Source: Caldilineaceae bacterium
GTDB taxonomy: Bacteria > Chloroflexota > Anaerolineae > Caldilineales > Caldilineaceae
Reading direction: 5' to 3'
NCBI GenBank assembly: GCA_026989655.1
Contig: JALSIX010000008.1
Location: forward strand, 1-33,291
DNA length: 33,291 nucleotides
Translations under genes and position numbers: made by a program
Part shown: piece by piece, positions 6,392-30,705 of the stretch
Position numbering within the stretch: position 1 is the stretch's first letter
Layout: each line of letters begins with the position of its first letter
The notes under the pieces: model-generated
The model's database searches: none
Told to the model about the DNA's origin: nothing
Seen by the model: the letters and a program-made list of their open reading frames with translations, nothing else

Positions 6392-7051
6392 TCACTCCAG
6401 CCCTCGCCCGCCTGCCAGGAGCCGCGCCAGCCGCCTCTCCATCCGGACCCGCAGGCGCACGGCCACAGGCACGGCCAGGATCCGGCGCAGCGCGTCCGGG
6501 GGGAGATCGTCCCGGTAGGCGGCCTGGAAGAGCTCCAGCACCGTGACCCGTTCACCGGGGTACGGCTCCCAGCGGACCGGATCCCCGGCCTGGAGGGTGC
6601 CGGGGACCGACACCCGACAGTAGAACCCCGGCCGTTCCGCCTCTCGGAAGCGGCGGATGAACGCGGGCTCGTCCATGCGGGCCGCCAGTGTGCTGCAGGG
6701 GATCCGGGGGCCGGTGACCTCCAGGACTACGGACCCCACCTGGAGCCGATCGCCCACCGCAAAGGAGCTGCCCTCCAGCCCGTGTACCGTCAGGTTCTCG
6801 CCGAAGGTGCCGGGCTCCAGCGAACGCCCCAGCTCCTGGGCCCACCAGGCATAGTCCTCGCCCCCGTAGACGTAGACCGCCTGGTCCAGGCCGCCGTGGT
6901 GCTGGGTGTCGCAGACCGTATCGCCGGCCACCCCCTCCGGCGTGACGGCCACCGCTCCGGCGACCGGCTCCTTGAAGATGCCGGTGAGGCCACGGAAATC
7001 GTGCCGGGCCAGATACCGGGGCCGTCCTGCGTTGACGCTGATCAGGTGCAT
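6392..7051 (-). CDS. MOSC domain protein, YiiM-like
   Basis: 219 aa from the ATG at 7051, preceded by CAGGAG; longer in-frame starts have no such site. MOSC domains are the molybdenum-cofactor sulfurase C-terminal fold, and YiiM-type proteins detoxify N-hydroxylated bases using Moco. Visible marks are the N-terminal strand LISVNAGRPR, the metal-proximal GDTVCDTQHHGGLDQAVYVY segment, GTFGENLTV, and the conserved Cys in PRIPCSTLAARM, which would bind molybdenum. The YiiM-type C-terminal helical extension is present (about 155-219). It points the same way as the importer genes next to it and lies 115 bases after the ATPase. Co-transcription with the importer is possible, but a functional link is not shown. 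Confidence 0.88.
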   Translation of the reverse strand: MHLISVNAGRPRYLARHDFRGLTGIFKEPVAGAVAVTPEGVAGDTVCDTQHHGGLDQAVYVYGGEDYAWWAQELGRSLEPGTFGENLTVHGLEGSSFAVGDRLQVGSVVLEVTGPRIPCSTLAARMDEPAFIRRFREAERPGFYCRVSVPGTLQAGDPVRWEPYPGERVTVLELFQAAYRDDLPPDALRRILAVPVAVRLRVRMERRLARLLAGGRGLE

Positions 7052-7166
7052 GCGATCACACTCCTGGAAAGGACCGGCCACCCCCTGGTCCGTGGAGGTG
7101 GGCCCCGGAACGGCCGCGATAGGCCGGTTCACCGGGCCGACAAGGCCCAGGGAGCCGGGACCTGGC

Positions 7167-7970
7167 TCACGCTCCGCCCACCGGGTTGGGCCCGATGCGC
7201 TCCTCCCGGATCAGGGCCAACAGGTGGCGGCGGAGCTCCACGAACCGGGGCGAGGACTCCGTCTCCAGCAGGGAACGGGGCCGGGGCAGCTCCACGGCCA
7301 CCTCGGCCTTCAGCCGGCCTGGCCGGGCGGTCATCACATAGATCCGATCCGAGAGGAGGATGGCCTCCTCCACGTCGTGGGTCACGAAGAGCACCGTGGT
7401 GCGATCCTCCTCCCAGATCCGCAACAACAGCTCCTGCATGAGGAGGCGGGTCTGGGCGTCCAGCGCGCCGAAGGGTTCGTCCATCAGGAGGAGCTGGGGG
7501 CGGTAGACCAGGGCCCGGGCGATGGCCACCCGCTGGCGCATGCCCCCGGAGAGCTGGGCTGGGTACGCGTCCTCGAACCCCTGGAGCCCCACCTGGTGGA
7601 GGAAATGGGACACCGCCTCCTCCTGGGCCTGTCGGGAGAGATCCTGTTTCTTCAGCGCGAAGCGGACGTTCTCCCGGACGGTGAGCCAGGGGAAGAGGGT
7701 GTAGCTCTGGAAGACCATGCCCCGGTCCGCGCCGGGGCCGGTGATCCGGCGGCCGTCCACCTGGATCTCGCCTCGGGTAAGGCGCTCCAGCCCGGCCACC
7801 ATGCGGAGGAAGGTGGACTTGCCGCAGCCGGAGGGGCCGATCAGGGAGACGAACTCGTTGGCATGGATGTGGAGGCTCAGGTCCTCCACGGCCACCACGG
7901 CCTGGCCTCTGGGCCCCGAGCCGAAGACCTTCCACACGTGCTGGGCGAGGAGCTTGATGGGACGGCCCAC
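7167..7970 (-). CDS. ABC importer ATPase (nitrate/sulfonate/taurine family)
   Basis: 267 aa, energising subunit of the importer encoded with the two following minus-strand entries. All motifs are intact: Walker [10 protein letters not shown] (about 43-51), Q-loop [12 protein letters not shown], signature LSGGMRQR, Walker [13 protein letters not shown] and switch His in [20 protein letters not shown] and [12 protein letters not shown] are typical of the SsuB/TauB/NrtD group. Translation starts at a GTG four bases after the permease stop, preceded by GGGAGAG, so it is coupled to the permease. Substrate is not readable from the ATPase. Confidence 0.93.
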
Positions 7971-7974
7971 GGGG

Positions 7975-8832
7975 CTACTCTCCCTGGCTTTCCCGGACCA
8001 CCCAGGGAAAGAGCCATCGGTAGGTGAGCTTGAAGCTGTAGTCCGTCATCAGCCCCAACACCCCGATGACCAGGATCCCCAGGATGATGGTCTCCGTCTC
8101 CAGGAAACGCTGGGCCCGCATGATCCGATAGCCCAGGCCCACGTTGGCCGCCACCAGCTCGGCCACCACCAGGTAGGTCCAGGCCCACCCCAGGGTGATG
8201 CGGAAGGTGTCCCAGATGCCGGGCATGGCCGCGGGCAGGACCACGTGGAAGAGGACCTCCCGCCGGTTCAGGCCGAAGGTGTAGCTCACCTGGATCAGCT
8301 CGTAGCGGACGGTCTTCACGTTGTCCATGATCATCAGCACCTCCTGGAAGAAGGTGCCGATGAAGAGGATGATGAACTTCTGGGTGTCCCCGACCCCGGC
8401 CCACAGGATGGTCAGGGGGATGAAGGCCACGGCCGGCATGTAGCGCACCAGGTCGATGAAGGGCTCGAACAGCCCCTCGAAGAGGCGGAAGTTCCCCATC
8501 AGGATGCCGATGGGCAGGGCCACGGCCGTGGAGATGAGCCAGCCCACGGTGATCCGGTAGACACTGGCCGAGACGTCCTGCCAGAGAATGCCCTCCTGCA
8601 CCTGGCGGACCAGCTCCTGGAGGACCGCGGCCGGGGGAGGCAGGAAGATGGGCGACACCAGGCCCAGCTCGGTGAGGAGCACCCAGCCCAGGAGAAACAG
8701 GCCGATGAAGCCCAGGCCCGCGCCCCAGTAGTAGCGGGCTGGGATGGCTCCTCGGATCTCCAACAGGGCCCGGGGACGGTCCGCATCCAGGGGAACGGTG
8801 GCCTCCCCGTTCTCGACGGTGGATGAGGTCAT
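7975..8832 (-). CDS. ABC importer permease (SsuC/TauC-like)
   Basis: 285 aa, BPD-type inner-membrane permease with about six membrane helices after a roughly 35-residue cytosolic N-terminus. The cytoplasmic coupling (EAA) loop is visible as YTFGLNRREVLFHVVLPAAMPGI, read here as two parts (YTFGLNRREV and LFHVVLPAAMPGI). ATG at 8832 with AGGAAGGG just upstream. It sits 144 bases after the receptor gene. It likely works as a homodimer with two ATPase copies to import a small anionic or thiamine-precursor-like solute. Confidence 0.92.
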   Translation of the reverse strand: MTSSTVENGEATVPLDADRPRALLEIRGAIPARYYWGAGLGFIGLFLLGWVLLTELGLVSPIFLPPPAAVLQELVRQVQEGILWQDVSASVYRITVGWLISTAVALPIGILMGNFRLFEGLFEPFIDLVRYMPAVAFIPLTILWAGVGDTQKFIILFIGTFFQEVLMIMDNVKTVRYELIQVSYTFGLNRREVLFHVVLPAAMPGIWDTFRITLGWAWTYLVVAELVAANVGLGYRIMRAQRFLETETIILGILVIGVLGLMTDYSFKLTYRWLFPWVVRESQGE

Positions 8833-8890
8833 TGGGCCCTTCCTGGGATGGAGGTGTGCACGGCTGGATGCCAGAGAACGGGAGATGGGC

Positions 8891-8907
8891 GGTGGCCCGG
8901 GCCCACC
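8891..8907 (-). terminator. Small hairpin between receptor and permease genes
   Basis: GGTGG (8891-8895) pairs with CCACC (8903-8907) around a 7-base GC-rich loop in the 144-base gap between receptor and permease. Such hairpins often protect the 3' end of the abundant receptor mRNA or attenuate readthrough. No T tract, so this is only a suggestion. Confidence 0.25.
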
Positions 8908-8976
8908 GGAGGCGGTCCGGATGCCCCCGGCCCGGGCCCTCCGGGCAGCACGGTGCAGGCCATCGTCCCTCCAGCC

Positions 8977-9981
8977 CTACTCCAGGAACGCGGGATCGAT
9001 CAGGGCATCCAGGTCGGGGATCTCCGAGATGAGGCCGATGCTCAGGGAGACCTCTGCCACGTCCTGGATGGTGTCCCGGAAATCGCCGGTGAGCTGCTCC
9101 CGGTTGGCGGCCAGGTCAAAGAACTCCACACCGTCGAAAGCGGTAGCCAGCTCCTGGGGATCGCTGCCCACGGCCCGGGAGATGATGGCCCGGCCCTCCT
9201 CGGGGTTCGCGTTGTAGAAGGCCATGGCCTCATCCCAGATCGCCAACAGGGCCCGGACGGTCTCGGGCCGTTCCTGGGCGAACTGGGCGCTGACGGCCAG
9301 CACATCGGAGATCAGGCCTGGCCGTTCCGCCGCGGTGTAGAGCAGGTGCAGGTCCGGGTTCTGGGCCCGGGCCTCGCTGATATAGGGCTCATAGGTCACC
9401 GCGGCCTCCACCCGCCCCGCGATGAGCGCGGCCCCCGCGTCCGAGGCGGGCATGGGCACCGGCTGGACGTCCTGGATGGACATCCCGTTCTGGGCCAACG
9501 CGTAGTGGAGCAGGAGATCGCTGGTGCTCCCCTCCTCGTAGGCCACGGCCACGCCCCTCAGGTCGGCGATGGCCTGGATGTCTGCCCCGGCCAGGATCGC
9601 GTCCGCCTCGTAGGAGGCGTCCTCCAACAGGACGATCCGGATCTCCAGGCCGTTGCCGAAGAGCTTGATGGCCGTGTGGGTGGCCAGGTTGGCCGCGTCC
9701 ATGTCGCCGGAGGCCAGGGCCGCGTTCACGTCCTGGTCCTGGATGAACTCCACCAGCTCCACGTCCAGGCCGTACTTGTCGAAGAGGCCCCGCTCCTGGG
9801 CGATCCACCAGGGGCCGTAGCCGATCCAGGGCTGGGTGCCGATCCGAACTCTCTCCGAGGTCGTCGGGCCCGCCTGGCCCGACGAGGATGTGCCCGGTGG
9901 GGGCGGCGCCACCGCCGAACAGGCCGCCGCGACCAGGGCAAGGGCCAGGAGCCACACCAGGGCATGGATCCGATACCACAT
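8977..9981 (-). CDS. ABC importer substrate-binding lipoprotein (NMT1/TauA-like)
   Basis: 334 aa, extracytoplasmic receptor of the importer. The N-terminus is a lipoprotein signal peptide with lipobox VAAAC (Cys about residue 21), then a Pro/Gly/Ser linker. The mature domain opens with RVRIGTQPWIGYGPWWIAQE, the pattern of the NMT1/SsuA/NitT-TauT receptors, followed by GLFDKYGLDVELVEF and a GDMDAANL segment lining the pocket. Close relatives bind sulfonates, taurine, nitrate, riboflavin or pyrimidine thiamine precursors; the sequence does not decide. AGGAGGTT precedes the ATG. A strong promoter lies about 105 bases upstream. Confidence 0.9.
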   Translation of the reverse strand: MWYRIHALVWLLALALVAAACSAVAPPPPGTSSSGQAGPTTSERVRIGTQPWIGYGPWWIAQERGLFDKYGLDVELVEFIQDQDVNAALASGDMDAANLATHTAIKLFGNGLEIRIVLLEDASYEADAILAGADIQAIADLRGVAVAYEEGSTSDLLLHYALAQNGMSIQDVQPVPMPASDAGAALIAGRVEAAVTYEPYISEARAQNPDLHLLYTAAERPGLISDVLAVSAQFAQERPETVRALLAIWDEAMAFYNANPEEGRAIISRAVGSDPQELATAFDGVEFFDLAANREQLTGDFRDTIQDVAEVSLSIGLISEIPDLDALIDPAFLE

Positions 9982-11207: not shown

Positions 11208-13019
11208 TCAGGCTGGGTGCAGGGCCTCCTCCAGAGCCCGGCCCTGCTCCTCTCGGAACTGCTGGATGTAGAGGCGATAGTAGTGTCCTCGGGCCCGGAT
11301 CAGCTCCGGGTGGGTGCCCATCTCCACGATCCGGCCGTCCCGGATCACCACGATCCGATCCGCCCTGCGGACGGTGGAGAGCCGGTGCGCGATGATGAAG
11401 CTGGTCCGTCCCTCCAGCAGCCGCTCCATGCCCCGCTGGATCAGGGCCTCGGTCAGGGTGTCCACGCTGCTGGTGGCCTCGTCCATGATGAAGATGTCCG
11501 GGTCGGCCAGGACGGCCCGAGCCAGGCTGATGAGCTGTTTCTGGCCCACCGAGAGCAGGATGCCCCCCTCCCCCACGTCCGTGTCGTAGCCCTTCTCCAG
11601 TTGACAGATGAAGTCGTGGGCCCCCACGGCCCGGGCCGCGGCCTCCACCTCCGCGTCCGTCGCGTCCAGCCGGCCATAGTGGATGTTCTCCCGGACGGTG
11701 CCGGAGAAGAGGTGGGGGGTCTGGAGCACCATCCCGATCCGGGACTGGAGGCCGTGGAGGGTGAACTCCCGGTAGTCCCGGCCGTGGATCCGGATCTCCC
11801 CCTCTCGGGGCTCGTAGAAGCGACACAGCAGGTTCACGATGGTGGACTTCCCCGCGCCGGTGGGGCCCACCAATGCCACGGTCTCTCCCTGGCGCACGTG
11901 GAGGCTGAACGCCTGCAACACGGGCTTGTCCGGCTCGTACCAGAAGCTCACCCGGTGGAAGACGATGTCGCTGCGGAGGGAGCCGGGGTCCACCGCGCCG
12001 GGGCGGTCCTGGATCTCGGGCACCGCGTCCAGGAGGGAGAAGATCCGCTCCCCCGCGGCGATGGACTGCTGCATCTCCGCGTAGATCCGGGCCATCTCCT
12101 GGATGGGCCACAACATGAAGGTGATGTAGGAGACGAAGGCCTGGATGCTCCCCACGGACATGCCGCCCACCTGGAACTGCCAGCCCCCGTACCACAGGAC
12201 CGTGCCCACCCCCACCGCGCTGATGAGCTGGACCGTGGGCAGGAACAGGGCCGAGAGCCAGGCCGCGCGGAAGGCCGCCCGCTGCATCCGCCCGGTCAAC
12301 TGGGCGAACTCGGCCAGGTTGGCCTCCTCCCGGCCCAGGGCCTTCACCACCCGGACCCCGGTGATGTTCTCGTTGAAGGCCCCGGTGATCTGGGAGTTCA
12401 TCCGCCGCACCGTCCGGTACTCGCCCAGGATACGCCGGCGGAACCCCCCGGCCACCCCCAACAGCACCGGGATCACCCACACCACGGCCAGGGCCATCTG
12501 CCAGTGGATGTAGAACATGAAGGTGAACGCGGCCAGGATGTTCGTGATCCCCCACACCGTGTCCAGGAACCCCCAGGAGACCAGCTCGCTCACCCGTTGG
12601 CTGTCCGAGGTGACCCGGGACATGAGCCAGCCCACCGGGGTCCGATCGAAGTAGGAGAGGGAGAGGGTCTGGAGCTTCTCGAACATCTGCCGGCGCAGCT
12701 CGTACTGGACCCGCTCGCCCAGCCGGCCGGCACTGGTGATGAAGCCGAACACCAACACCGCCTGGACCCCGATGAGCGCCGCGTACTCCGCCACCAGCCG
12801 GGCCAGGAGGGCCCGGTCGCCGGCCAGGATGGCCTCGTCGATGATCTGCTTGCCCAGGAACGTGAAGTACGCGTCCAACAGGGAGGTCAGCGCGACCGAG
12901 GCCAGGAAGGCCGCCATGTAGGGCCAGTGGGGCAGCCCCTGCTGCAGGATGCGCAACACCGTTCTCCCGTTGAACCGGGTGGTGAACGCCTCTTCCTGGA
13001 AGTGCTCAGGCGTGGACAT
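11208..13019 (-). CDS. ABC exporter half-transporter, distal subunit of minus-strand pair
   Basis: 603 aa, type IV exporter with six membrane helices (about 30-330) followed by the ATPase. Walker A GPTGAGKS at 385-392, Walker B with catalytic Glu514 (MDEAT) and switch His545 are intact, but the signature is LSVGQ (489-493) instead of LSGGQ. Together with its partner's degenerate Walker B this predicts a heterodimer with one consensus and one degenerate ATP site, as in BmrCD, TM287/288 and TmrAB. Drugs or lipids are the usual substrates of this class. It lies 70 bases behind the partner gene, same strand, presumably same transcript and under the attenuator at 15038-15160. Confidence 0.93.
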   Translation of the reverse strand: MSTPEHFQEEAFTTRFNGRTVLRILQQGLPHWPYMAAFLASVALTSLLDAYFTFLGKQIIDEAILAGDRALLARLVAEYAALIGVQAVLVFGFITSAGRLGERVQYELRRQMFEKLQTLSLSYFDRTPVGWLMSRVTSDSQRVSELVSWGFLDTVWGITNILAAFTFMFYIHWQMALAVVWVIPVLLGVAGGFRRRILGEYRTVRRMNSQITGAFNENITGVRVVKALGREEANLAEFAQLTGRMQRAAFRAAWLSALFLPTVQLISAVGVGTVLWYGGWQFQVGGMSVGSIQAFVSYITFMLWPIQEMARIYAEMQQSIAAGERIFSLLDAVPEIQDRPGAVDPGSLRSDIVFHRVSFWYEPDKPVLQAFSLHVRQGETVALVGPTGAGKSTIVNLLCRFYEPREGEIRIHGRDYREFTLHGLQSRIGMVLQTPHLFSGTVRENIHYGRLDATDAEVEAAARAVGAHDFICQLEKGYDTDVGEGGILLSVGQKQLISLARAVLADPDIFIMDEATSSVDTLTEALIQRGMERLLEGRTSFIIAHRLSTVRRADRIVVIRDGRIVEMGTHPELIRARGHYYRLYIQQFREEQGRALEEALHPA

Positions 13020-13089: not shown

Positions 13090-14991
13090 TCATCTCCGCT
13101 CTTCCAGCCCTTCCCGAGGAGCTGCCTCCAGGGCCTGGCGGATCTCCTGCTCCAGCTCGGCCTCCATGCGGATCTGCAGCTCGTACACCCGGCGGTAGAT
13201 CCCCTGCCGGGCCATCAGCTCCGCGGGGGTGCCCTGCTCCACGATGCGCCCCCGGTCCATCACCAGGATCCAGTCCGCGTCCGCCACACTCTGCACCCGA
13301 TGGGCGATGATGAAGGTGGTCCGCCCCTGCATGAGGCGGCGCAGGGCCCCTCGAATGGCCGCCTCGGTCTCCGTGTCCACCGAGGAGAGCGCGTCGTCCA
13401 GGATCAGGATGCTGGGATCCTTCAGCAAGGTCCGGGCGATGGTGATGCGCTGCTTCTGGCCCCCGGAGAGGGTCACCCCTCGCTCTCCCACCAGGGTGTC
13501 GTAGCCCTGGGGGAAGGCGAGGATCCCCTCGTGGATGGCCGCGGCCCGGGCCGCGGCCTCCACCTCCTGGTCGCTCACCTCCCGGCCCACCCCGTAGGTG
13601 ATGTTGTTGCGGATGGTGGTGGAGAACAGGAAGGGCTCCTGCTGCACCAGGCCGATCTCTCGACGCAGGTAGCTCCGGGGGTAGTCCCGCAGCTCCACCC
13701 CATCCAGGGTGATGCGCCCCTCGGTGTAGTCGTAGAACCGGAGCAACAGGTTCACCAGGGTGGTCTTGCCGGAACCGGTGGCCCCCAGGATGCCCACCAC
13801 CTGTCCCGGCGCCGCGCGGAAGGTGATCTCCCGCAGCACCCACTCCTGGCCCGAGGCCTGGGCCCCGGGGTAGCGAAAGCCCACCCCCTGGTAGCAGATC
13901 TCGCCCCCCAGGCGAGCTGGGGGCCGGATCCGGCCGGCCTCCAGGGGTTCTCGGGGCTCCCGCAGGATCTCCAGGACCCGTTCCAGGGAGACCAGACCGG
14001 TGGAGATGTGGGCCATCAGCCGGCCCAGGTTGCGGATGGGCCAGAGGATCTGGACCACCAGCCCCATGTAGGCCAGGTAGGTGCCCACCGTGAGGGTGCC
14101 CTCCATGACCATCTGCGCGCCCAGGTAGAAGCCGCCCACCATCTGCAGCCCACACAGGATGTCCGTGGTGGGCCAGAAGATCGCGTGCATGCGGATGAGC
14201 TGGGTGCCCTGCAGGTACTTCTGCCAGTTCTCCCGATCGAAGCGCCGCCTCTCGTATGCCTGACGGGCGAAGGCCTTCACCACCCGCACCCCGGTCAGGT
14301 TCTCCTGGAGCCGGTCCGACACCACCGCGTCCTGGTCCTGGTAGGCCTGGTAGACCTGCTCCAGGCGGCGGAAGAAGTGGAGGGAGAGGGCCACCACCAC
14401 CGGCACCACCAGGACCGAGAGGACGGCCAGCCGGCGGTCCAGGTAGAGCAGGGCCCCGAAGTGGACCAGGAAGAGCAGGCCCACCTGGCCCACGCCGATG
14501 AGCTGCTCCGAGAAGAGCCGGCGCACCGCGTCCACGTCCGAGGTGGCCCGTTGGACCAGCTCCCCTGTCTGCATGCGGTCGTGGTAGGGAAAGGGCAACC
14601 GCTGGATATGGTCGAACAGGTAGTTCCGCAGCCGCCGGGCGATGGTCTCCGCGGTGTCCGCGGCCAGCCGCCCGCTCAGGAAGGTCAGGCTTCCCTGGAG
14701 CAGGGCCACCAGGACAAAGGCCCCGGCGGTCCAGGGGATGGCCCAGCCCAGCTCCGGGTCCTGCAGCACCCGGTCCACGAAGAAACGCAGGACGTAGTAG
14801 AGGCCGGTTCGGGCCAGCGCGGCCAGCCCCACCGCGAGGAGGGCCACCAGGTAGGCCAGCCGATGCCCCCGCAACAGCCGCCACAGGCCCACGGCCTTGT
14901 GATCGGTGACCACGTGGGCCAGATCGTCGTCCTCCGGCCGAGAGTGCAGCCTCCTGGCTTGCCTCTCGGGGTGTGCCTCCATGGCATCCAT
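13090..14991 (-). CDS. ABC exporter half-transporter, proximal subunit with degenerate Walker B
   Basis: 633 aa from the ATG at 14991 (GAGGG about ten bases upstream; a second ATG at 14982 is possible). A charged N-terminal tail of about 35 residues precedes six membrane helices; the ATPase starts near 365. Walker A GATGSGKT (403-410), signature LSGGQ (508-512) and switch His564 are canonical. The catalytic Glu after Walker B is replaced by Asp533 (LDDALSSVD), so its own site should hydrolyse ATP poorly. This is the BmrC-like partner of the LSVGQ subunit downstream. Its mRNA begins with a leader of about 400 nt with an upstream ORF and an intrinsic terminator, so expression is probably induced by antitermination. 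Confidence 0.93.
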   Translation of the reverse strand: MDAMEAHPERQARRLHSRPEDDDLAHVVTDHKAVGLWRLLRGHRLAYLVALLAVGLAALARTGLYYVLRFFVDRVLQDPELGWAIPWTAGAFVLVALLQGSLTFLSGRLAADTAETIARRLRNYLFDHIQRLPFPYHDRMQTGELVQRATSDVDAVRRLFSEQLIGVGQVGLLFLVHFGALLYLDRRLAVLSVLVVPVVVALSLHFFRRLEQVYQAYQDQDAVVSDRLQENLTGVRVVKAFARQAYERRRFDRENWQKYLQGTQLIRMHAIFWPTTDILCGLQMVGGFYLGAQMVMEGTLTVGTYLAYMGLVVQILWPIRNLGRLMAHISTGLVSLERVLEILREPREPLEAGRIRPPARLGGEICYQGVGFRYPGAQASGQEWVLREITFRAAPGQVVGILGATGSGKTTLVNLLLRFYDYTEGRITLDGVELRDYPRSYLRREIGLVQQEPFLFSTTIRNNITYGVGREVSDQEVEAAARAAAIHEGILAFPQGYDTLVGERGVTLSGGQKQRITIARTLLKDPSILILDDALSSVDTETEAAIRGALRRLMQGRTTFIIAHRVQSVADADWILVMDRGRIVEQGTPAELMARQGIYRRVYELQIRMEAELEQEIRQALEAAPREGLEERR

Positions 14992-15037
14992 GGCGAGATC
15001 CCTCGAGATCCTTTGGGTGGGTGGTTGCGTGCAAACG

Positions 15038-15068
15038 AAAACGCCGCGGGAAGAACCCGTGGCGTTTT
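15038..15068 (-). terminator. Intrinsic terminator in the exporter leader
   Basis: Read on the minus strand: AAAACGCCACGGG (15068-15056), loop TTCTT, CCCGCGGCGTTTT (15050-15038), then CGTTT. The 13-bp stem has one A-C mismatch and ends in a T-rich run. It lies between the promoter (15403-15431) and the exporter start codon (14991), so it can only act as an attenuator. Confidence 0.8.
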
Positions 15069-15160
15069 CCGTGGAGTGCCGACAGATGAGGCACGTCCCC
15101 CCAGATCGCGGGGCAACAGAAAAGGCCACGGGCCTGGCACCGTGACCTCCGGGGGGGACG
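15056..15160 (-). promoter_or_regulatory. Attenuator: competing antiterminator and anti-antiterminator pairings
   Basis: Minus-strand CCCGTGGCCTTTTC (15132-15119) is complementary over 13 of 14 bases to GAAAACGCCACGGG (15069-15056), which contains the terminator's 5' arm; forming this helix destroys the terminator. The same segment can instead fold with GGTCACGG (15147-15140) into a local hairpin (15124-15147), which frees the terminator arm. A 9-bp helix CGTCCCCCC (15160-15152) with GGGGGGACG (15102-15094) encloses that local hairpin and would stabilise the terminating state. The three sets of pairings are what a riboswitch or ribosome-controlled attenuator needs. No known riboswitch class is recognised. 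Confidence 0.7.
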
Positions 15161-15192
15161 AAGCAGCCGGCCTTGCCGGCCGCCAAGGTGCT

Positions 15193-15204
15193 TCAGAGGA
15201 TCAT
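15193..15204 (-). other. Three-codon ORF overlapping the leader ORF stop
   Basis: ATG ATC CTC TGA starts inside the stop of the leader ORF (ATGA overlap). It would allow reinitiation and move the ribosome to 15193 before release. Its last bases overlap the AGAGGA complement that can pair with the leader ORF's ribosome binding region. May be coincidental. Confidence 0.25.
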
Positions 15205-15278
15205 CGGTGCACCTGTCCTTCGCTTCCGGCGCGCTGCGCGCCGCTGCGGGAGAAGAAAAGGGAGCAGATCGTCCGCAT
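15201..15278 (-). CDS. Leader peptide ORF upstream of ABC exporter
   Basis: A 25-codon ORF starting MRTICSLFFSRSG and ending GQVHR, within the transcribed leader of the exporter operon, about 120 nt downstream of the predicted transcription start and about 130 nt before the terminator. Two possible Shine-Dalgarno sequences precede it: GGTGAGG ending 3 bases before the ATG, and GAGGAG about 12 bases before. The bases AGAGGA (15298-15293) can pair with TCCTCT (15200-15195) just after the stop, so translation and folding would interact. In Bacillus, bmrB is a leader peptide gene that controls the heterodimeric exporter bmrCD by ribosome-mediated attenuation; this layout is analogous, though no sequence similarity is claimed. 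Being in a leader, a short ORF could also be chance. Confidence 0.55.
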   Translation of the reverse strand: MRTICSLFFSRSGAQRAGSEGQVHR

Positions 15279-15402
15279 GGTCCTCACCGAGCTCCTCTCA
15301 CGACATGGGCCGTCGAGACGACGGCGCCCCGACCTTGGCTGGCCCTGGAGGGTCTGGACGTCGGCAGGCACAGGCCCGGGGGCCTGCCCGGCGACGGATG
15401 TC

Positions 15403-15431
15403 ACTATAACAGACAGGATGTCGGATGTCAA
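15403..15431 (-). promoter_or_regulatory. Near-consensus promoter of minus-strand exporter operon
   Basis: TTGACA (15431-15426) and TATAGT (15408-15403) separated by 17 bases on the minus strand: a full-consensus -35 and a -10 with one mismatch. Start of transcription near 15396 gives a leader of about 405 nt. A strong promoter followed by a terminator fits control after initiation. Confidence 0.8.
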
Positions 15432-15433
15432 CC

Positions 15434-15462
15434 TTGAATTCCTCCCGGGAATCGGGTACACT
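15434..15462 (+). promoter_or_regulatory. Predicted promoter of plus-strand exporter operon
   Basis: TTGAAT (15434-15439) and TACACT (15457-15462) with a 17-base spacer, about 95 bases before the GTG start. Its -35 is two bases from that of the opposing promoter, so the two polymerases would exclude each other or share a regulator. Confidence 0.6.
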
Positions 15463-15556
15463 GGACGTGGCTGTATCGGTTCAGAGCCATATCGGAGCAG
15501 GTCGTCTGCCCTGGCCTGCAGATCTGCGGCCTTCCCCCGACCGTGGAGGCATCCCC

Positions 15557-17341
15557 GTGACCGGCCGACTCGCCGTCTACCATCGGCTCCTGGGCTACCT
15601 GCGCCCCTACTGGAGACAGGCCACCCTGGCCTACGCCGCGGTCCTGGCCGTGGCCCTGCTCAACCTGCTGGTCCCCCAGATCCTGAAAGGTGCCATCGAC
15701 CAGGGCCTGGCCAGCGGACGCCCGGAGGCCCTCTTCCTGGCCGGCGGGCTCATCCTGGCCGTGGCCGCGGTCCGGGGCGGGGCCGCGTATGTCCAGCGCT
15801 TCTACGGCCAGTGGTTGACCCATCGGGTGGCCTACGACCTGCGCAACCACCTCTACAGCCGGCTGCTGCGGCTTCCCTTCGCCTTCCACGACCGAGCCCA
15901 CACCGGGGACCTGATGAGCCGGGCCACCAGCGACATCAGCGAGACCGAACGCTTCGTGGGCATCGGCCTCATGGACCTGACCGCTACCCTGCTGCTCCTC
16001 CTGGGGGTGATCGGGGCCATGCTCCTGGAGAACACCCGACTCGGTGCCCTGGTCCTGCTCCCCATGGCGGTGCTGGTGGTGGCCACCCTCCACTTCGGCC
16101 ACGTGGTGCGCCCCATGTTCAAACGGATCCAGGAGCAGATGGGGGTGCTCTCCACCACCATGCAGGAGATCCTCACCGGGATCCAGGTGGTGAAGGCCTT
16201 TGCCCGGGAGCCCCACGAGCTGGGGCGGTTCGACACGGCCAATGAGGAGTGGTTCCGACGCCGCTACCGGGTGATCCGGGTCTGGGCCCATAGCTGGCCC
16301 ACCTTCACCCTCATCCTGGGCACGGCCATCCTCCTCCTGCTCTGGGTGGGCGGCCCCCAGGCCCTGCGGGGAGAGAGCACGGTGGGCTCCCTCTTCGCGC
16401 TCATCTCCTATGTGCTCATGCTGAACGGCCCGGTGCAACGCCTGGGCTTCCTGGTGAACCTGGCCGCAACCGCGGGGGCCAGTGCCTCCCGGGTCTTCGA
16501 GATCATCGACATGCCGCCGGAGGACGAGGCCCCGGACGCGGTGGAGCTCCGGGAGGTCCGCGGGGAGGTGGCCTTCGAACACGTGGCCTTCCGTTACGGG
16601 GATGGCCCGCCCATCCTCCAGGACATCCACTTCCGGGTAGCCCCCGGCCAGACCGTGGCCCTGGTGGGCCCCACCGGCTCGGGCAAGTCCACTGTGGTCC
16701 AGCTTCTGGCCCGTTTCTACGACCCCACCCAGGGCCGCATCACCGTGGACGGGGTGGACATCCGCCGGGTGACCCGGGAGAGCCTGCGCCGACACATCGG
16801 CATGGTCATGCAGGAGCCCTTCCTCTTCGGCCTCACCGTGGCCGAGAACATCGCCTACGGCCGGCCGGACGCCTCCCCCCAGGAGATCGTGGCCGCGGCC
16901 CGGGCGGCCCGGGCCCACGACTTCATCATGCAGCTTCCCCAGGGCTACGAGACCCGCATCGGCGAGCGGGGGGTGACCCTCTCCGGGGGCCAGAAACAGC
17001 GCATCGCCATTGCCCGGGCCCTCCTCGCGGACCCCCGCATCCTGGTGCTGGACGATTCCACCAGCAGCGTGGATACGGAGACGGAGCATCGGATCCAGGA
17101 GGCCATGGCCGAGCTCATGCAGGGCCGGACCACCTTCATCATCGCCCAGCGGCTCCTCACCCTGAAGAACGCGGACCGGATCCTGGTGTTGGATCGGGGA
17201 CGGATCGTGGAGCAGGGCACCCACCGAGAGCTCCTGGCACGCGATGGCCTCTACCGACGTATCTACGACCTGCAGCTTCGAGACCAGGAGGCCTCCGCAG
17301 GGCTCCTGGCCCAGGCCTGGAACTCGGACACAACCCCATGA
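15557..17341 (+). CDS. ABC exporter half-transporter, proximal subunit, catalytically degenerate
   Basis: 594 aa from a GTG at 15557 with GGAGG eight bases upstream; the frame is open further upstream, but those starts overlap the promoter. Six membrane helices (about 20-310) then ATPase with Walker A GPTGSGKS (371-378) and a canonical LSGGQ (475-479). Two catalytic positions are changed: the Glu after Walker B is Asp500 (LDDSTSSVD) and the switch His is Gln531 (IIAQRLLT). It should therefore form the non-hydrolysing site of a heterodimer with the next gene, whose start overlaps this stop (ATGA). It occupies the same position as the 13090-14991 subunit in the mirrored operon. Confidence 0.93.
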   Translation: MTGRLAVYHRLLGYLRPYWRQATLAYAAVLAVALLNLLVPQILKGAIDQGLASGRPEALFLAGGLILAVAAVRGGAAYVQRFYGQWLTHRVAYDLRNHLYSRLLRLPFAFHDRAHTGDLMSRATSDISETERFVGIGLMDLTATLLLLLGVIGAMLLENTRLGALVLLPMAVLVVATLHFGHVVRPMFKRIQEQMGVLSTTMQEILTGIQVVKAFAREPHELGRFDTANEEWFRRRYRVIRVWAHSWPTFTLILGTAILLLLWVGGPQALRGESTVGSLFALISYVLMLNGPVQRLGFLVNLAATAGASASRVFEIIDMPPEDEAPDAVELREVRGEVAFEHVAFRYGDGPPILQDIHFRVAPGQTVALVGPTGSGKSTVVQLLARFYDPTQGRITVDGVDIRRVTRESLRRHIGMVMQEPFLFGLTVAENIAYGRPDASPQEIVAAARAARAHDFIMQLPQGYETRIGERGVTLSGGQKQRIAIARALLADPRILVLDDSTSSVDTETEHRIQEAMAELMQGRTTFIIAQRLLTLKNADRILVLDRGRIVEQGTHRELLARDGLYRRIYDLQLRDQEASAGLLAQAWNSDTTP

Positions 17342-19308
17342 CCTCCCTGTCCCACCCCTCGTCCAATGGCCCGGCCAAGTATCCCCGGCCGCGAGACCGG
17401 CTGGGCCGGCTCCTTCCGGGGACTGCCCCCTGGGAAGATCCGGCCCTCTCCCTGGAGGCCCGGGAACGGCTGATGCGGGAAAGCCGGGTGGCAGACCTCC
17501 TGCCCCAGGAGGAAGAGGAGGATCGTCTGGGCAGGGCCTACGATGGACGGCTGTTGCGCCGTCTGGCCGGCTACATCCACCCCTACCGGGGGCGGATGGC
17601 CCTGGCCGTGGTGCTCATGGTGGTCTCCTCCCTGCTCAGCGTGGCCGGACCATGGACCATCGGCCAGGCCATCGACCAGGGCATCCAGGCCGGGGACATG
17701 GGTCGGCTGCGTTTCTGGACCCTGGTCTTCCTGGCCACCCTGTTGGGCGAATGGCTCGCGAACCGCAGCCGCATCGCGCTCATGGCCTACGTGGGCACCC
17801 GGATCGTGGCCGACGTCCGACGCCATCTCTTCCGCCACCTGCTGGCCCTCTCCCTGCACTTCTTCCACCGCTACAGCGTGGGCCGGCTGATGAGCCGCCT
17901 GATCAGCGACGTGGGCGTGCTCCAGGACTTCGTCACCTGGTCCATCACCGGTGTGGCCCGGGCCGTCTTCGTACTCCTGGGCATCGTCATCGCCATGGTG
18001 GGGATGAACCTCCGCCTGGCCCTGGTGGCCTTCTCGGTGTTGCCCCTGATGGTGCTGCTGACCGACTACTGGCGCCGACGGGTCCGAGAGGCCTACCGGG
18101 CCACCCGACGACGCCTGGCCCTGATCAACGGTTTCCTGAACGAATCCATCTCGGGCGTCCGCATCATCAAGAGCTTCGTGCGGGAACGGATCAACGCCCG
18201 CCACTTCGACGAGCTGAACCGGGCCTTCTTCGATGCCAACATCCAGGCCGCGCGGCTGGCCGCGCTCTTCTTCCCCGGGGTAGACGGCATCGGGGCTCTG
18301 GCCAAGGCCCTGGTGGTGGGGGTCGGTGGGTGGCTGGTGCTGGACAACGCCCTCACCCCGGGCACCCTGGTGGCCTTCGTCCTCTACGTGGACCGCTTCT
18401 TCGACCCCATCCGGGACCTGGCCCAGCGCTACAACACCTTCCAGGCCACCATGGCCGCGAGCGAACGGATCTTCCAGCTCCTGGACACCGAGCCGGACCT
18501 CCAGGACCGGCCGGGCGCGTACGAGCTGCCCCGGGTGCGGGGCCACGTGCGCTTCCACCGGGTCTCCTTCGGGTACGTGCCCGGGCAGCCGGTGCTCCAG
18601 GACTTCACCCTGGAGGCCCGGCCTGGAGAACGGGTGGCCCTGGTGGGCGAGACCGGCGCGGGCAAGAGCACGGTGATCCGGCTCCTGGCCCGCTTCTACG
18701 ATCCCACCTCCGGATGCATCCAGGTGGACGGCCACGACATCCGCCAGGTGACCCGGGCCAGCCTACGCCGGCAGATGGGCATCGTCCTCCAGGACACCTT
18801 CCTCTTCAGCGGCACCATCCGGGAGAACATCCGCTATGGCCGGCTGGACGCGACGGACGGGGAGGTGGAGGCCGCGGCCCGGGCCGTGGGGGCCCACGAC
18901 TTCATCGCGCAGCTGGAGAAGGGCTACGACACCGAGGTGGGCGAGCACGGAATCCACCTGAGCGTGGGGCAGCGCCAGATCCTGGCCTTTGCCCGGGCCC
19001 TCCTCGCGGACCCTCGGATCCTGGTGCTGGACGAGGCCACCAGCAGCGTGGACACGGAGACGGAGCGCCAGATCCAGGCCGCGCTGGAACGCCTGCTGGC
19101 CGGGCGCACCAGCTTCGTCATCGCGCACCGGCTCAACACCATCGTCCACAGCCACAAGATCGTGGTCCTGGACCGGGGCCGCATCGTGGAGATGGGCACC
19201 CACCCGGAGCTCCTGGCCCGGGGCGGGCGGTACCACCAGCTCTACACCCTGCAGTGGGCCCGCCAGCCCGCAGAGGCACCCCGGCGCGAACAGGGTGTGG
19301 GCCCCTGA
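17338..19308 (+). CDS. ABC exporter half-transporter, distal subunit of plus-strand pair
   Basis: 656 aa, partner of the preceding subunit, translationally coupled by an ATGA overlap. It has an unusually long cytosolic N-terminus of about 75 residues, rich in Arg and Glu (LPQEEEEDRLGR), before the first membrane helix, some 50 residues more than the 11208-13019 homologue. Walker A GETGAGKS (from 437), Walker B with Glu566 (LDEAT) and His597 are intact; the signature reads LSVGQ (541-545). It thus supplies the working Walker site and the degenerate signature, as in BmrD-type subunits. Segments such as YGRLDATDGEVEAAARAVGAHDF are nearly the same as in the 11208-13019 protein (read in two parts), so the two pairs arose by duplication. 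Confidence 0.93.
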   Translation: MTSLSHPSSNGPAKYPRPRDRLGRLLPGTAPWEDPALSLEARERLMRESRVADLLPQEEEEDRLGRAYDGRLLRRLAGYIHPYRGRMALAVVLMVVSSLLSVAGPWTIGQAIDQGIQAGDMGRLRFWTLVFLATLLGEWLANRSRIALMAYVGTRIVADVRRHLFRHLLALSLHFFHRYSVGRLMSRLISDVGVLQDFVTWSITGVARAVFVLLGIVIAMVGMNLRLALVAFSVLPLMVLLTDYWRRRVREAYRATRRRLALINGFLNESISGVRIIKSFVRERINARHFDELNRAFFDANIQAARLAALFFPGVDGIGALAKALVVGVGGWLVLDNALTPGTLVAFVLYVDRFFDPIRDLAQRYNTFQATMAASERIFQLLDTEPDLQDRPGAYELPRVRGHVRFHRVSFGYVPGQPVLQDFTLEARPGERVALVGETGAGKSTVIRLLARFYDPTSGCIQVDGHDIRQVTRASLRRQMGIVLQDTFLFSGTIRENIRYGRLDATDGEVEAAARAVGAHDFIAQLEKGYDTEVGEHGIHLSVGQRQILAFARALLADPRILVLDEATSSVDTETERQIQAALERLLAGRTSFVIAHRLNTIVHSHKIVVLDRGRIVEMGTHPELLARGGRYHQLYTLQWARQPAEAPRREQGVGP

Positions 19309-28481: not shown

Positions 28482-29396
28482 ATGACCCGAACTGTGGAAT
28501 CCATCGATCAGATTGTCCAGGCCCTGAAGGACCACATGTACATCGCGGACCGGAGCCTGGCCACGGCCATCTTCCTGGCCCTGAAGCTGGGGCGCCCCCT
28601 CTTCCTGGAAGGGGAGCCCGGCGTGGGCAAGACCGAGGTGGCCAAGGTCCTGGCAGACCTGCTGGACCGTCCCCTGATCCGGCTCCAGTGCTACGAGGGC
28701 CTGGACGTGAACACCGCGGTCTACGAGTGGAACTACACCCGGCAGATGCTCCAGATCCGCCTGATGGAGGCCGCGGGCACCGCCCGCGACCAACACGCGG
28801 TGGACGGTCTCTTCAGCGAGGAGTTCCTGCTCAAGCGCCCCCTCCTCCAGGCCCTGGAATCCAGGAACGGCCGGGCCCCGGTGCTCCTCATCGACGAGCT
28901 GGACCGAGCCGACGAGGAGTTCGAGGCCTTCCTCCTGGAGGTCCTGTCCGACTTCCAGATCACCGTGCCCGAGCTCGGCACCATCCGGGCCCAGGAGCCC
29001 CCGGTGGTGGTCATCACCTCCAACCGCACCCGAGAGATCCACGACGCGCTGAAACGGCGCTGCCTCTACCACTGGATCGACTACCCCGGCTTCGAGAAGG
29101 AATACCAGATCGTCCTGGCCAAGGTGCCCCAGGCCCCGGACCGGCTGGCCCGCCAGGTGGTGGGCTTCGTCCAGGCCCTGCGCGGGGAGGAGCTCTACAA
29201 GCTGCCCGGCGTGGCCGAGACCTTGGACTGGGTCACCGCGCTGGTGGCCCTGGACCAGGAGGAGCTCACCGAGGAGGCGATCCAGGAGACCCTGGGCGTG
29301 CTGCTCAAGTACCGGGACGATATCCAGCGGATCCGGGGCGAGACGGTCCGCCAGCTCCTGGAGCGCCTGCAACAGGGCGAGGCCCTGGGCCTGTGA
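28482..29396 (+). CDS. MoxR-type AAA ATPase, CoxD-like
   Basis: 304 aa. Walker A GEPGVGKT (44-51), Walker B LLIDELD (135-141), sensor 1 in VVITSNRTREI and the lid helical domain from about 210. MoxR ATPases act as chaperones that insert metal cofactors, together with a VWA protein. CoxD of Oligotropha helps build the CuSMo site of CO dehydrogenase, and this one is followed by a CoxE-like VWA gene and XdhC genes, so it is likely the same kind of maturation ATPase. It lies 30 bases after the GNAT gene. No strong ribosome binding site before the ATG. Confidence 0.9.
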   Translation: MTRTVESIDQIVQALKDHMYIADRSLATAIFLALKLGRPLFLEGEPGVGKTEVAKVLADLLDRPLIRLQCYEGLDVNTAVYEWNYTRQMLQIRLMEAAGTARDQHAVDGLFSEEFLLKRPLLQALESRNGRAPVLLIDELDRADEEFEAFLLEVLSDFQITVPELGTIRAQEPPVVVITSNRTREIHDALKRRCLYHWIDYPGFEKEYQIVLAKVPQAPDRLARQVVGFVQALRGEELYKLPGVAETLDWVTALVALDQEELTEEAIQETLGVLLKYRDDIQRIRGETVRQLLERLQQGEALGL

Positions 29397-29469
29397 CCTC
29401 GAGCCCCGGCGCCGAGGGCCCCACCCGGAAAGGGGCCCAGGCCGCCCCCAGAAAGCTGCCACCGGCACC

Positions 29470-30705
29470 ATGATGAGCGCCCTCCCCGAGACCGCACCGG
29501 AGCCCACACCCCCCCACCCCGCGGGAAAGGGGCAGTTGCTGCGCAACATCGTCCACTTTGCCCGGCTGCTCCGAGCCCTGGGCATGGACGTGACCCCCAC
29601 CCAGATCCTGGACCTGGTGGCCGCGCTGGAGCACATGGACCTGGGCGCGAAGCAGGACGTGAAGGCCGCGGCCCGGGCCATCCTGGTGGGGCGCCGGGAG
29701 CATCTGGAGCTCTTCGACGAGGCCTTCGAGCTCTTCTGGCGGGCCCATCGCCACCGCTTTCCCCGGGTGGACCTGGGCCAACTCCTGCGCAAACGGCCGG
29801 CCCCCCAGGAGCTCCTGCGCATGGCCGAGCCGCCCTCCAAGGGGAAGGGCCAGGAGCCGGAGCCCGATCCGGAGCCGGAGCTCGACAAGATCTTCACCTG
29901 GAGCGACACCGAGGTCCTGCGCCGCAAGGACTTCGCCCGCATGAGCGAGTACGAGCTGGCCCAGGTCAAGGCCCTGATGGAGGAGATGCGCTGGGACCTG
30001 GACACCCGACGCAGCCGACGGCTGGAGCGGGCCCGAGCCGGTGCTCAACTGGACCTGCGGCGCACCTTTCGGCGCAATACCCGCTACGGCGGCGAGCCGT
30101 TGGAACTGGCCTGGCGACAGCGGAAGGAGAAACGCCGCCCCATCGTGGCCCTGTGCGACATCAGCGGCTCCATGGACCGTTACTCCCGGGTCCTGCTCCA
30201 GTTCCTGTACGCCATCACCCACAGCCTGGGGCGAGTGGAGGCCTTTGTCTTCGGCACCCGGCTGACCCGGATCACCCGCCAGCTCCGCATCCGGGACATC
30301 GACCAGGCCGTGGACGCGGCCGCATCCCAGGTGGAGGACTGGGCCGGGGGCACCCGCATCGGCGAGGCCGTCCGCAGCTTCAACCGCCACTGGGCCCGGC
30401 GGGTCCTGGGCCAGGGGGCCATGGTGCTCATCATCAGCGATGGCTGGGACCGGGGGGATCCGGAGCTCCTGGGCCAGGAGATGGACCGGCTCCACCGGAG
30501 CTGTCACCGGCTGATCTGGCTCAACCCCCTGCTGGGCTCACCGGGCTACGAACCGTTGACCCGAGGCATCCAGGCTGCGCTTCCCCATGTGGACGAGTTC
30601 CTGCCCGTCCACAACCTGGTGAGCCTGGAGCAGTTGGCCCAGGTGTTGCGAGGGGACGCTCCGCGGCGCCATGGATGGCGTGTCCGGCCCCGGCGGACAG
30701 GGTAG
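29470..30705 (+). CDS. VWA domain protein, CoxE-like
   Basis: 411 aa. The C-terminal von Willebrand A domain has the metal site DISGS (230-234) with Asp230, Ser232 and Ser234, later Thr in GGT and ISDGWD, so the MIDAS is complete. The N-terminal half is helical; LRALGMDVTPTQILDLV is typical of CoxE. A low-complexity acidic Pro/Glu stretch (EPEPDPEPE, about 129-138) links the halves. CoxE partners with the MoxR-type CoxD ATPase in assembling the Mo-Cu site. Two adjacent ATGs (29470, 29473) start it 73 bases after the ATPase stop. Confidence 0.9.
   Translation: MMSALPETAPEPTPPHPAGKGQLLRNIVHFARLLRALGMDVTPTQILDLVAALEHMDLGAKQDVKAAARAILVGRREHLELFDEAFELFWRAHRHRFPRVDLGQLLRKRPAPQELLRMAEPPSKGKGQEPEPDPEPELDKIFTWSDTEVLRRKDFARMSEYELAQVKALMEEMRWDLDTRRSRRLERARAGAQLDLRRTFRRNTRYGGEPLELAWRQRKEKRRPIVALCDISGSMDRYSRVLLQFLYAITHSLGRVEAFVFGTRLTRITRQLRIRDIDQAVDAAASQVEDWAGGTRIGEAVRSFNRHWARRVLGQGAMVLIISDGWDRGDPELLGQEMDRLHRSCHRLIWLNPLLGSPGYEPLTRGIQAALPHVDEFLPVHNLVSLEQLAQVLRGDAPRRHGWRVRPRRTG

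Follow-up and report, generated by a model that had tools for sequence, protein, structure and literature searches.

The leader of an ABC exporter operon on the minus strand of the window, the 33,291-nucleotide stretch of Caldilineaceae DNA analyzed here, is probably a ribosome-mediated transcription attenuator with two linked terminators, for which translation impaired by antibiotics is the likely signal. The leader (15431-14991, minus strand) comprises a promoter, a short upstream open reading frame (uORF), a hairpin A, and a terminator hairpin B. As judged from sequence comparison, the presence and conservation of these parts, co-variation at all five adjacent pairings, and a uORF frame that is kept among relatives are well established. 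The leader has the features of an attenuator, namely, a short uORF that has a Shine-Dalgarno site and, by comparison, is predicted to be translated, alternative folds that exclude one another, with a strand overlapping the uORF determining whether the terminator forms, and an intrinsic terminator ahead of the first structural gene. An earlier note had read this region as a leader-peptide attenuator of the exporter, and the conserved uORF, the co-varying helices, the upstream promoter, and the lack of an Rfam match support that reading.

The promoter (15403-15431, minus strand) consists of a -35 box, TTGACA (15431-15426), and a -10 box, TATAGT (15408-15403), with a 17-nt spacer. The near-consensus character ascribed to it in the earlier note holds, with 11 of 12 positions matching and a TG ahead of the second hexamer; promoter-like sites number 2 in 10 kb, versus 0.5 in shuffled sequence. 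It lies upstream of 15038 and is conserved, since the leaders of orthologues are preceded by the same promoter type (TTGAC-17/18-TATAGT or TAAACT). The uORF (15201-15278, minus strand) was correctly noted as a 25-codon ORF; it encodes MRTICSLFFSRSGAQRAGSEGQVHR, runs from the ATG at 15278 to the TGA at 15201 with AGAGGAG ahead, and is kept in place and frame among relatives. The intrinsic terminator placed by the same note just ahead of the exporter gene is hairpin B (15070-15032, minus strand; GGAAAACGCCACGGG..CCCGCGGCGTTTTCGTTTG). Hairpin A (15150-15119, minus strand) also resembles a terminator because it carries its own U-rich tail. A GTG start within hairpin A, opening an ORF at 14685-15140, was dropped, as the GTG is not kept in two related leaders (L046 and L057).

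The downstream genes are two adjacent full subunits of a type IV ABC exporter, one of them with a degenerate catalytic Glu, as is typical of heterodimeric multidrug exporters. The first subunit (13090-14991, minus strand) has the Walker B motif ILILDD, with Asp at the catalytic Glu position, and the second (11208-13019, minus strand) has the canonical IFIMDE, with Glu, in agreement with the heterodimeric exporter proposed earlier; the two nucleotide-binding sites thus look unequal in sequence, in line with the asymmetry of heterodimeric exporters. The solved structures matched by the pair are P-glycoprotein, the 6raf/5mkk multidrug exporter, YheI (BmrC), and TM288. A second type IV ABC exporter gene pair (15425-19308, plus strand) is divergent from the first. 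Its longest ORF begins within the minus-strand -35 box, and the more likely start is the in-frame GTG at 15557, which follows a GGAGG. Elsewhere in the window are genes for a MOSC-domain protein and an NMT1-type ABC importer (6392-9981, minus strand) and for an AAA_5 ATPase adjoining a CoxE-like VWA protein (28482-30705, plus strand).

Six minus-strand segments of the leader form a relay in which the pairings 1:2, 3:4, and 5:6 (off) compete with 2:3 and 4:5 (on). Strand 1 (15279-15298) contains the Shine-Dalgarno sequence AGAGGAG and the bases up to the uORF start, and it pairs with strand 2 (about 15193-15213; GGTGCACCGATGATCCTCTGA), which spans the last uORF codons, the stop codon, and a few bases more and can pair with strand 1 or strand 3. 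Strand 3 (15136-15150; GGAGGTCACGGTGCC) is the 5' arm of hairpin A, and strand 4 (15118-15135) is its 3' arm with the U-rich tail, having the terminator 5' arm as an alternative partner. Strand 5 (15054-15071) is the 5' arm of terminator hairpin B, and strand 6 (15032-15050) is its 3' arm with the U tract. The predicted duplex energies in the window are -20.6 (1:2), -24.3 (2:3), -23.6 (3:4), -24.5 (4:5), and -24.0 kcal/mol (5:6). In the best six-strand chain of the window leader, the weakest link is -21.3 kcal/mol, which is not equaled in any of 60 dinucleotide shuffles (mean of the weakest link, -16.3 ± 1.1; strongest, -18.3). The segment 15119-15132 (CCCGTGGCCTTTTC) is indeed complementary to the terminator 5' arm (GAAAACGCCACGGG) at 13 of 14 positions, as claimed in the earlier note. 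Its pairing with 15140-15147 also stands, although it forms a local, short-looped hairpin and not the long-range helix that had been described. The claim of a complete switch fails, because the note had strands 3 to 6 and strands 1 and 2 are needed to connect the uORF; these two were found by aligning orthologous leaders.

The co-variation of the helices, which the earlier note left to be checked in relatives, was found across them in two ways. When cognate duplexes were compared with duplexes of strands swapped among 55 non-redundant leaders, all five adjacent pairings were favored (z of -7.4 for 1:2, -7.4 for 2:3, -14.4 for 3:4, -10.0 for 4:5, and -18.6 for 5:6), each with 0 of 5,000 permutations as extreme. 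These z values ignore relatedness, and the unlinked pairs 1:3, 2:5, 2:4, 1:4, and 1:5 serve as a control because they share the same phylogeny; they give no signal (z, +0.4 to -1.5). Pair 3:6 also scores (z, -6.0), as would be anticipated from the resemblance between strands 3 and 5. Seven leaders with ambiguous parsing (L150, L196, L160, L242, L065, L216, and L044) were left out of this comparison, and the four hairpin segments of the window leader were set by hand, as the automatic picker chose a nested hairpin. In alignment A4, hairpins A and B are 96.6% paired, and 15 pairs are changed on both sides, versus 6.0 in shuffled alignments. Pairing 4:5 is 94.8% paired, with a covariation score of 0.273 versus 0.202 (0 of 500), in an alignment fitted to the hairpins rather than to 4:5 and with the 4:5 register picked for best pairing. 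A striking case is L223, where strand 1 (GGCAAGTGGG), strand 2 (TGCCCACTTGCC), and strand 3 (GTGGGCA) are all altered together.

By its nearest named relatives, which are MAGs of Caldilineaceae, the family of Litorilinea, and of other Anaerolineae, the window lies in a Chloroflexota genome. The leader recurs upstream of orthologous exporters in Caldilineaceae, with the promoter, a 23-codon uORF ending in HR and a stop at the matching place, and both hairpins. A shorter form is present in many Anaerolineales orthologues: the promoter is TTGACA-18-TAAACT, the uORF ends in R-S-A-P-V-D-R, and only one terminator follows, its 5' arm being the direct partner of strand 2. Model R1, a covariance model that represents hairpins A and B and was built from 22 sequences including the window leader, matches 34 of 46 family genomes as well as the window leader itself (E value of 3e-10, for a sequence that is part of the model). 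A second model (R2) matches 101 of 396 class genomes at an E value of ≤1e-4, and the search for other attenuators in the host genome, made by this covariance model only, gave the window site as the sole match. A strict scan for the full layout left 31 of 72 exporter loci unscored, some of them through parsing. R1 matches outside the class were weak and were treated as false, the two that were inspected (L168 and L169) having no uORF layout; reverse-strand model matches are palindrome echoes. Some R2 matches also seem unrelated, such as L238, which overlaps a tRNA-like sequence, and L241, which precedes a gene that by eye resembles one for a tRNA synthetase.

The number of terminators varies among these leaders. 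Two linked terminator-like hairpins are present in 47 of the 55 non-redundant leaders, and L147, a clear eight-strand form, has three with both links strong (-17.6 and -17.3). Six leaders were scored as three-hairpin forms by script, a count that includes weak or chance third hairpins; the one called in the window leader is a short hairpin ahead of A. The variants have one, two, or three linked hairpins, corresponding to four, six, and eight strands, and the number is always even, as the logic of serial opening requires. One switch could open all of the terminators in series. Tandem hairpins that share arms, two or three in number, were also seen in L147, L149, and L230, upstream of ABC exporters, and in L220, upstream of a methyltransferase.

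The uORF is tied to strand 2 by its reading frame. The strand-2 core lies in the frame of the start codon in 50 of the 58 non-redundant leaders that have a core, for which one-third is expected by chance, and the frame is kept even though the distance from start to core ranges from 39 to 108 nt. Among the 23-codon uORFs of Caldilineaceae, frame 0 is open in 16 of 16, and each of the other frames is open in 6 of 16. Codon pairs differing by a single change include 198 synonymous and 372 nonsynonymous pairs, versus neutral expectations of 137 and 433, a modest synonymous excess in a peptide that is itself poorly conserved. A mini-ORF, ATGATCCTCTGA (MIL and a stop; 15204-15193, minus strand), overlaps the uORF stop codon (ATGA), and relatives have GTGA at this place, opening an ORF of 10 to 12 codons; translational coupling and a by-product of strand 2 are both possible.

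Folding of transcripts ending before strand 6, with ribosome footprints masked, is consistent with a switch set by ribosome position in the 55 leaders. With strand 1 masked, as for an early stall, the means are 10.4 bp for 2:3 and 10.0 bp for 4:5, whereas with strand 2 masked, as for a ribosome at the stop codon, they are 8.7 bp for 3:4 and 3.9 bp for 4:5. Pairing 4:5 is more than 1 bp higher with strand 1 masked than with strand 2 masked in 36 of 55 leaders and lower in none. The window leader behaves likewise, giving 15.4 and 13.4 bp for 2:3 and 4:5 with strand 1 masked and 7.5 and 4.4 bp for 3:4 and 4:5 with strand 2 masked. In equilibrium folding without a ribosome, the window leader prefers 2:3 and 4:5, the on state; therefore, its off state should depend either on ribosomes reaching the stop codon or on 1:2 being trapped kinetically.

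RNA polymerase would start at about 15396 and transcribe the translated 25-codon uORF and then the two linked terminator hairpins. Ribosomes running through the uORF to its stop codon would cover strand 2, so that hairpin A (3:4) folds, followed by hairpin B (5:6), and transcription would stop before the exporter. A ribosome stalled or queued early in the uORF would instead cover strand 1, so that strand 2 pairs with strand 3 and strand 4 with strand 5; neither terminator could then form, and RNA polymerase would continue into the exporter operon. We infer that termination and readthrough occur in this manner in vivo.

The signal is likely to be a disturbance of translation by antibiotics that target the ribosome, and we infer a drug as the signal because of the genes that follow the leader. 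Among 60 further matches in the class, 47 precede genes for ABC exporters, ABC ATPases, ABC-F proteins, GNAT proteins, or RsgA, as assigned by phmmer or Pfam. With near-identical genomes counted separately, these are 17 type IV ABC exporters, 12 single ABC ATPases (distinguished from the remaining ABC classes on the basis of length and four Pfam scans rather than individually), 5 ABC-F proteins, 10 GNAT acetyltransferases, and 3 RsgA GTPases. Two ABC-F proteins have matches to NCBIfam ribosomal-protection models that fall short of the curated cutoff, both proteins being cut by the end of the locus. In other Anaerolineae, the same leader precedes genes for the ribosome-assembly GTPase RsgA (L194, L208, and L209) and a HAD-like hydrolase (L214). 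L213 has a uORF and two linked terminators upstream of a gene that by eye resembles one for an aspartyl-tRNA synthetase and may be a related amino acid attenuator.

The same attenuator could answer to another cue, a shortage of charged tRNA or arrest of the nascent chain at the conserved C-terminal R-S-A-P, and we consider this unlikely. Its target genes are of the resistance and ribosome-rescue type rather than biosynthetic, and the uORFs of the collected leaders contain no run of one codon for an end-product amino acid, which indicates that they are not amino acid attenuators. Another cue gains some weight from the codon before the strand-2 core, which specifies Arg in 37 of 49 uORFs through the synonymous codons CGG, CGC, CGT, or AGG, and from the resemblance of R-S-A-P, near the end of the RSAP-type uORFs, to R-A-P-P-like motifs, which are known arrest sequences (PMC10951233 and PMC12992588). 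However, the window uORF ends in HR, not RSAP. By analogy, a slow step at R-S-A-P would keep strand 2 covered, favoring termination. R-x-R motifs, which stall ketolide- and macrolide-bound ribosomes (PMC8298421), argue for a drug signal, as 16 of 49 RSAP-type uORFs have R/K-x-R/K ahead of the core, versus 6.6 ± 2.1 with residues shuffled; the window uORF itself has no R-x-R motif.

A ligand-binding riboswitch or a protein-dependent antiterminator, for which translation of the uORF would not be needed, might also account for a leader that is structured, conserved, and ended by a terminator. This is very improbable, since the uORF stays in frame although its length varies, the Shine-Dalgarno region of the uORF itself forms strand 1, and there is no conserved unpaired core. 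Rfam (release 15), searched at gathering and relaxed thresholds, gave chance matches only and no family at the gathering threshold, which agrees with the earlier note in recognizing no known riboswitch or leader family. The least probable explanation is one without switching, in which the hairpins are conventional tandem terminators or insulate the divergent exporter operons from each other, because, although both hairpins resemble intrinsic terminators, two terminators acting independently would have no need of shared arms, co-variation is seen for 4:5 and 2:3, and the element sits before unrelated genes in other genomes.

Translation-dependent attenuation by linked terminators remains the preferred reading, and the leaders probably belong to an undescribed family of "domino" attenuators across Anaerolineae, in which a uORF switch is linked by strand exchange to one to three successive intrinsic terminators (four, six, or eight strands), constituting a shared translation-stress response for exporters, ABC-F proteins, acetyltransferases, and RsgA. 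No attenuator of such a kind was found described for Chloroflexota in the literature searched, which stopped short of most subscription journals, and the antibiotic-responsive attenuators in that literature are mainly from Bacillota and Actinomycetota. If the family is real, it would represent a class-wide intrinsic-resistance response that is readable from sequence alone, the leader marking the exporters, acetyltransferases, and ABC-F proteins that respond to ribosome stress. A question of design also arises from the linked terminators, namely, whether added terminators cut leakage while induction stays.

The attenuator of the his operon follows a six-strand scheme, A to F, and to our knowledge, the middle hairpin of its leader is not a terminator. 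The enterobacterial his leader has an extra hairpin between the pause hairpin and the terminator (PMC1183508). The window leader is similar in having hairpins in series from leader peptide to terminator, but the his leader senses histidine through His codons, and the targets differ. For ermK, two adjacent terminators are reported (cited in PMC4335068). The ermK and mef(E)/mel macrolide attenuators, compared here by layout only, likewise combine a leader peptide (MTASMRLR for mef) with transcription attenuation of resistance genes, whereas the window leader comes from another phylum, its uORF lacks R-x-R, and in its family the number of terminators linked to a single uORF is between one and three. 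The bmrB leader of bmrCD in Bacillus subtilis contains an ORF that is translated, together with an intrinsic terminator, and responds to induction by lincomycin, erythromycin, and chloramphenicol (PMC4191407). The parallel with bmrB drawn in the earlier note holds for the mechanism, as in both cases the heterodimeric multidrug ABC exporter is preceded by a leader ORF and an intrinsic terminator that govern it, but it does not extend to the placement of the terminator, which lies within the leader coding region in bmrB (PMC4191407), whereas the window uORF ends at 15201 and the terminator lies at 15070-15032. The window leader further differs in its two linked hairpins after the uORF and its defined six-strand relay, and as far as Rfam searches show, neither leader is in Rfam. 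Ribosome-mediated attenuation is itself an established mechanism; what looks new is the leader family, together with the linkage of its tandem terminators.
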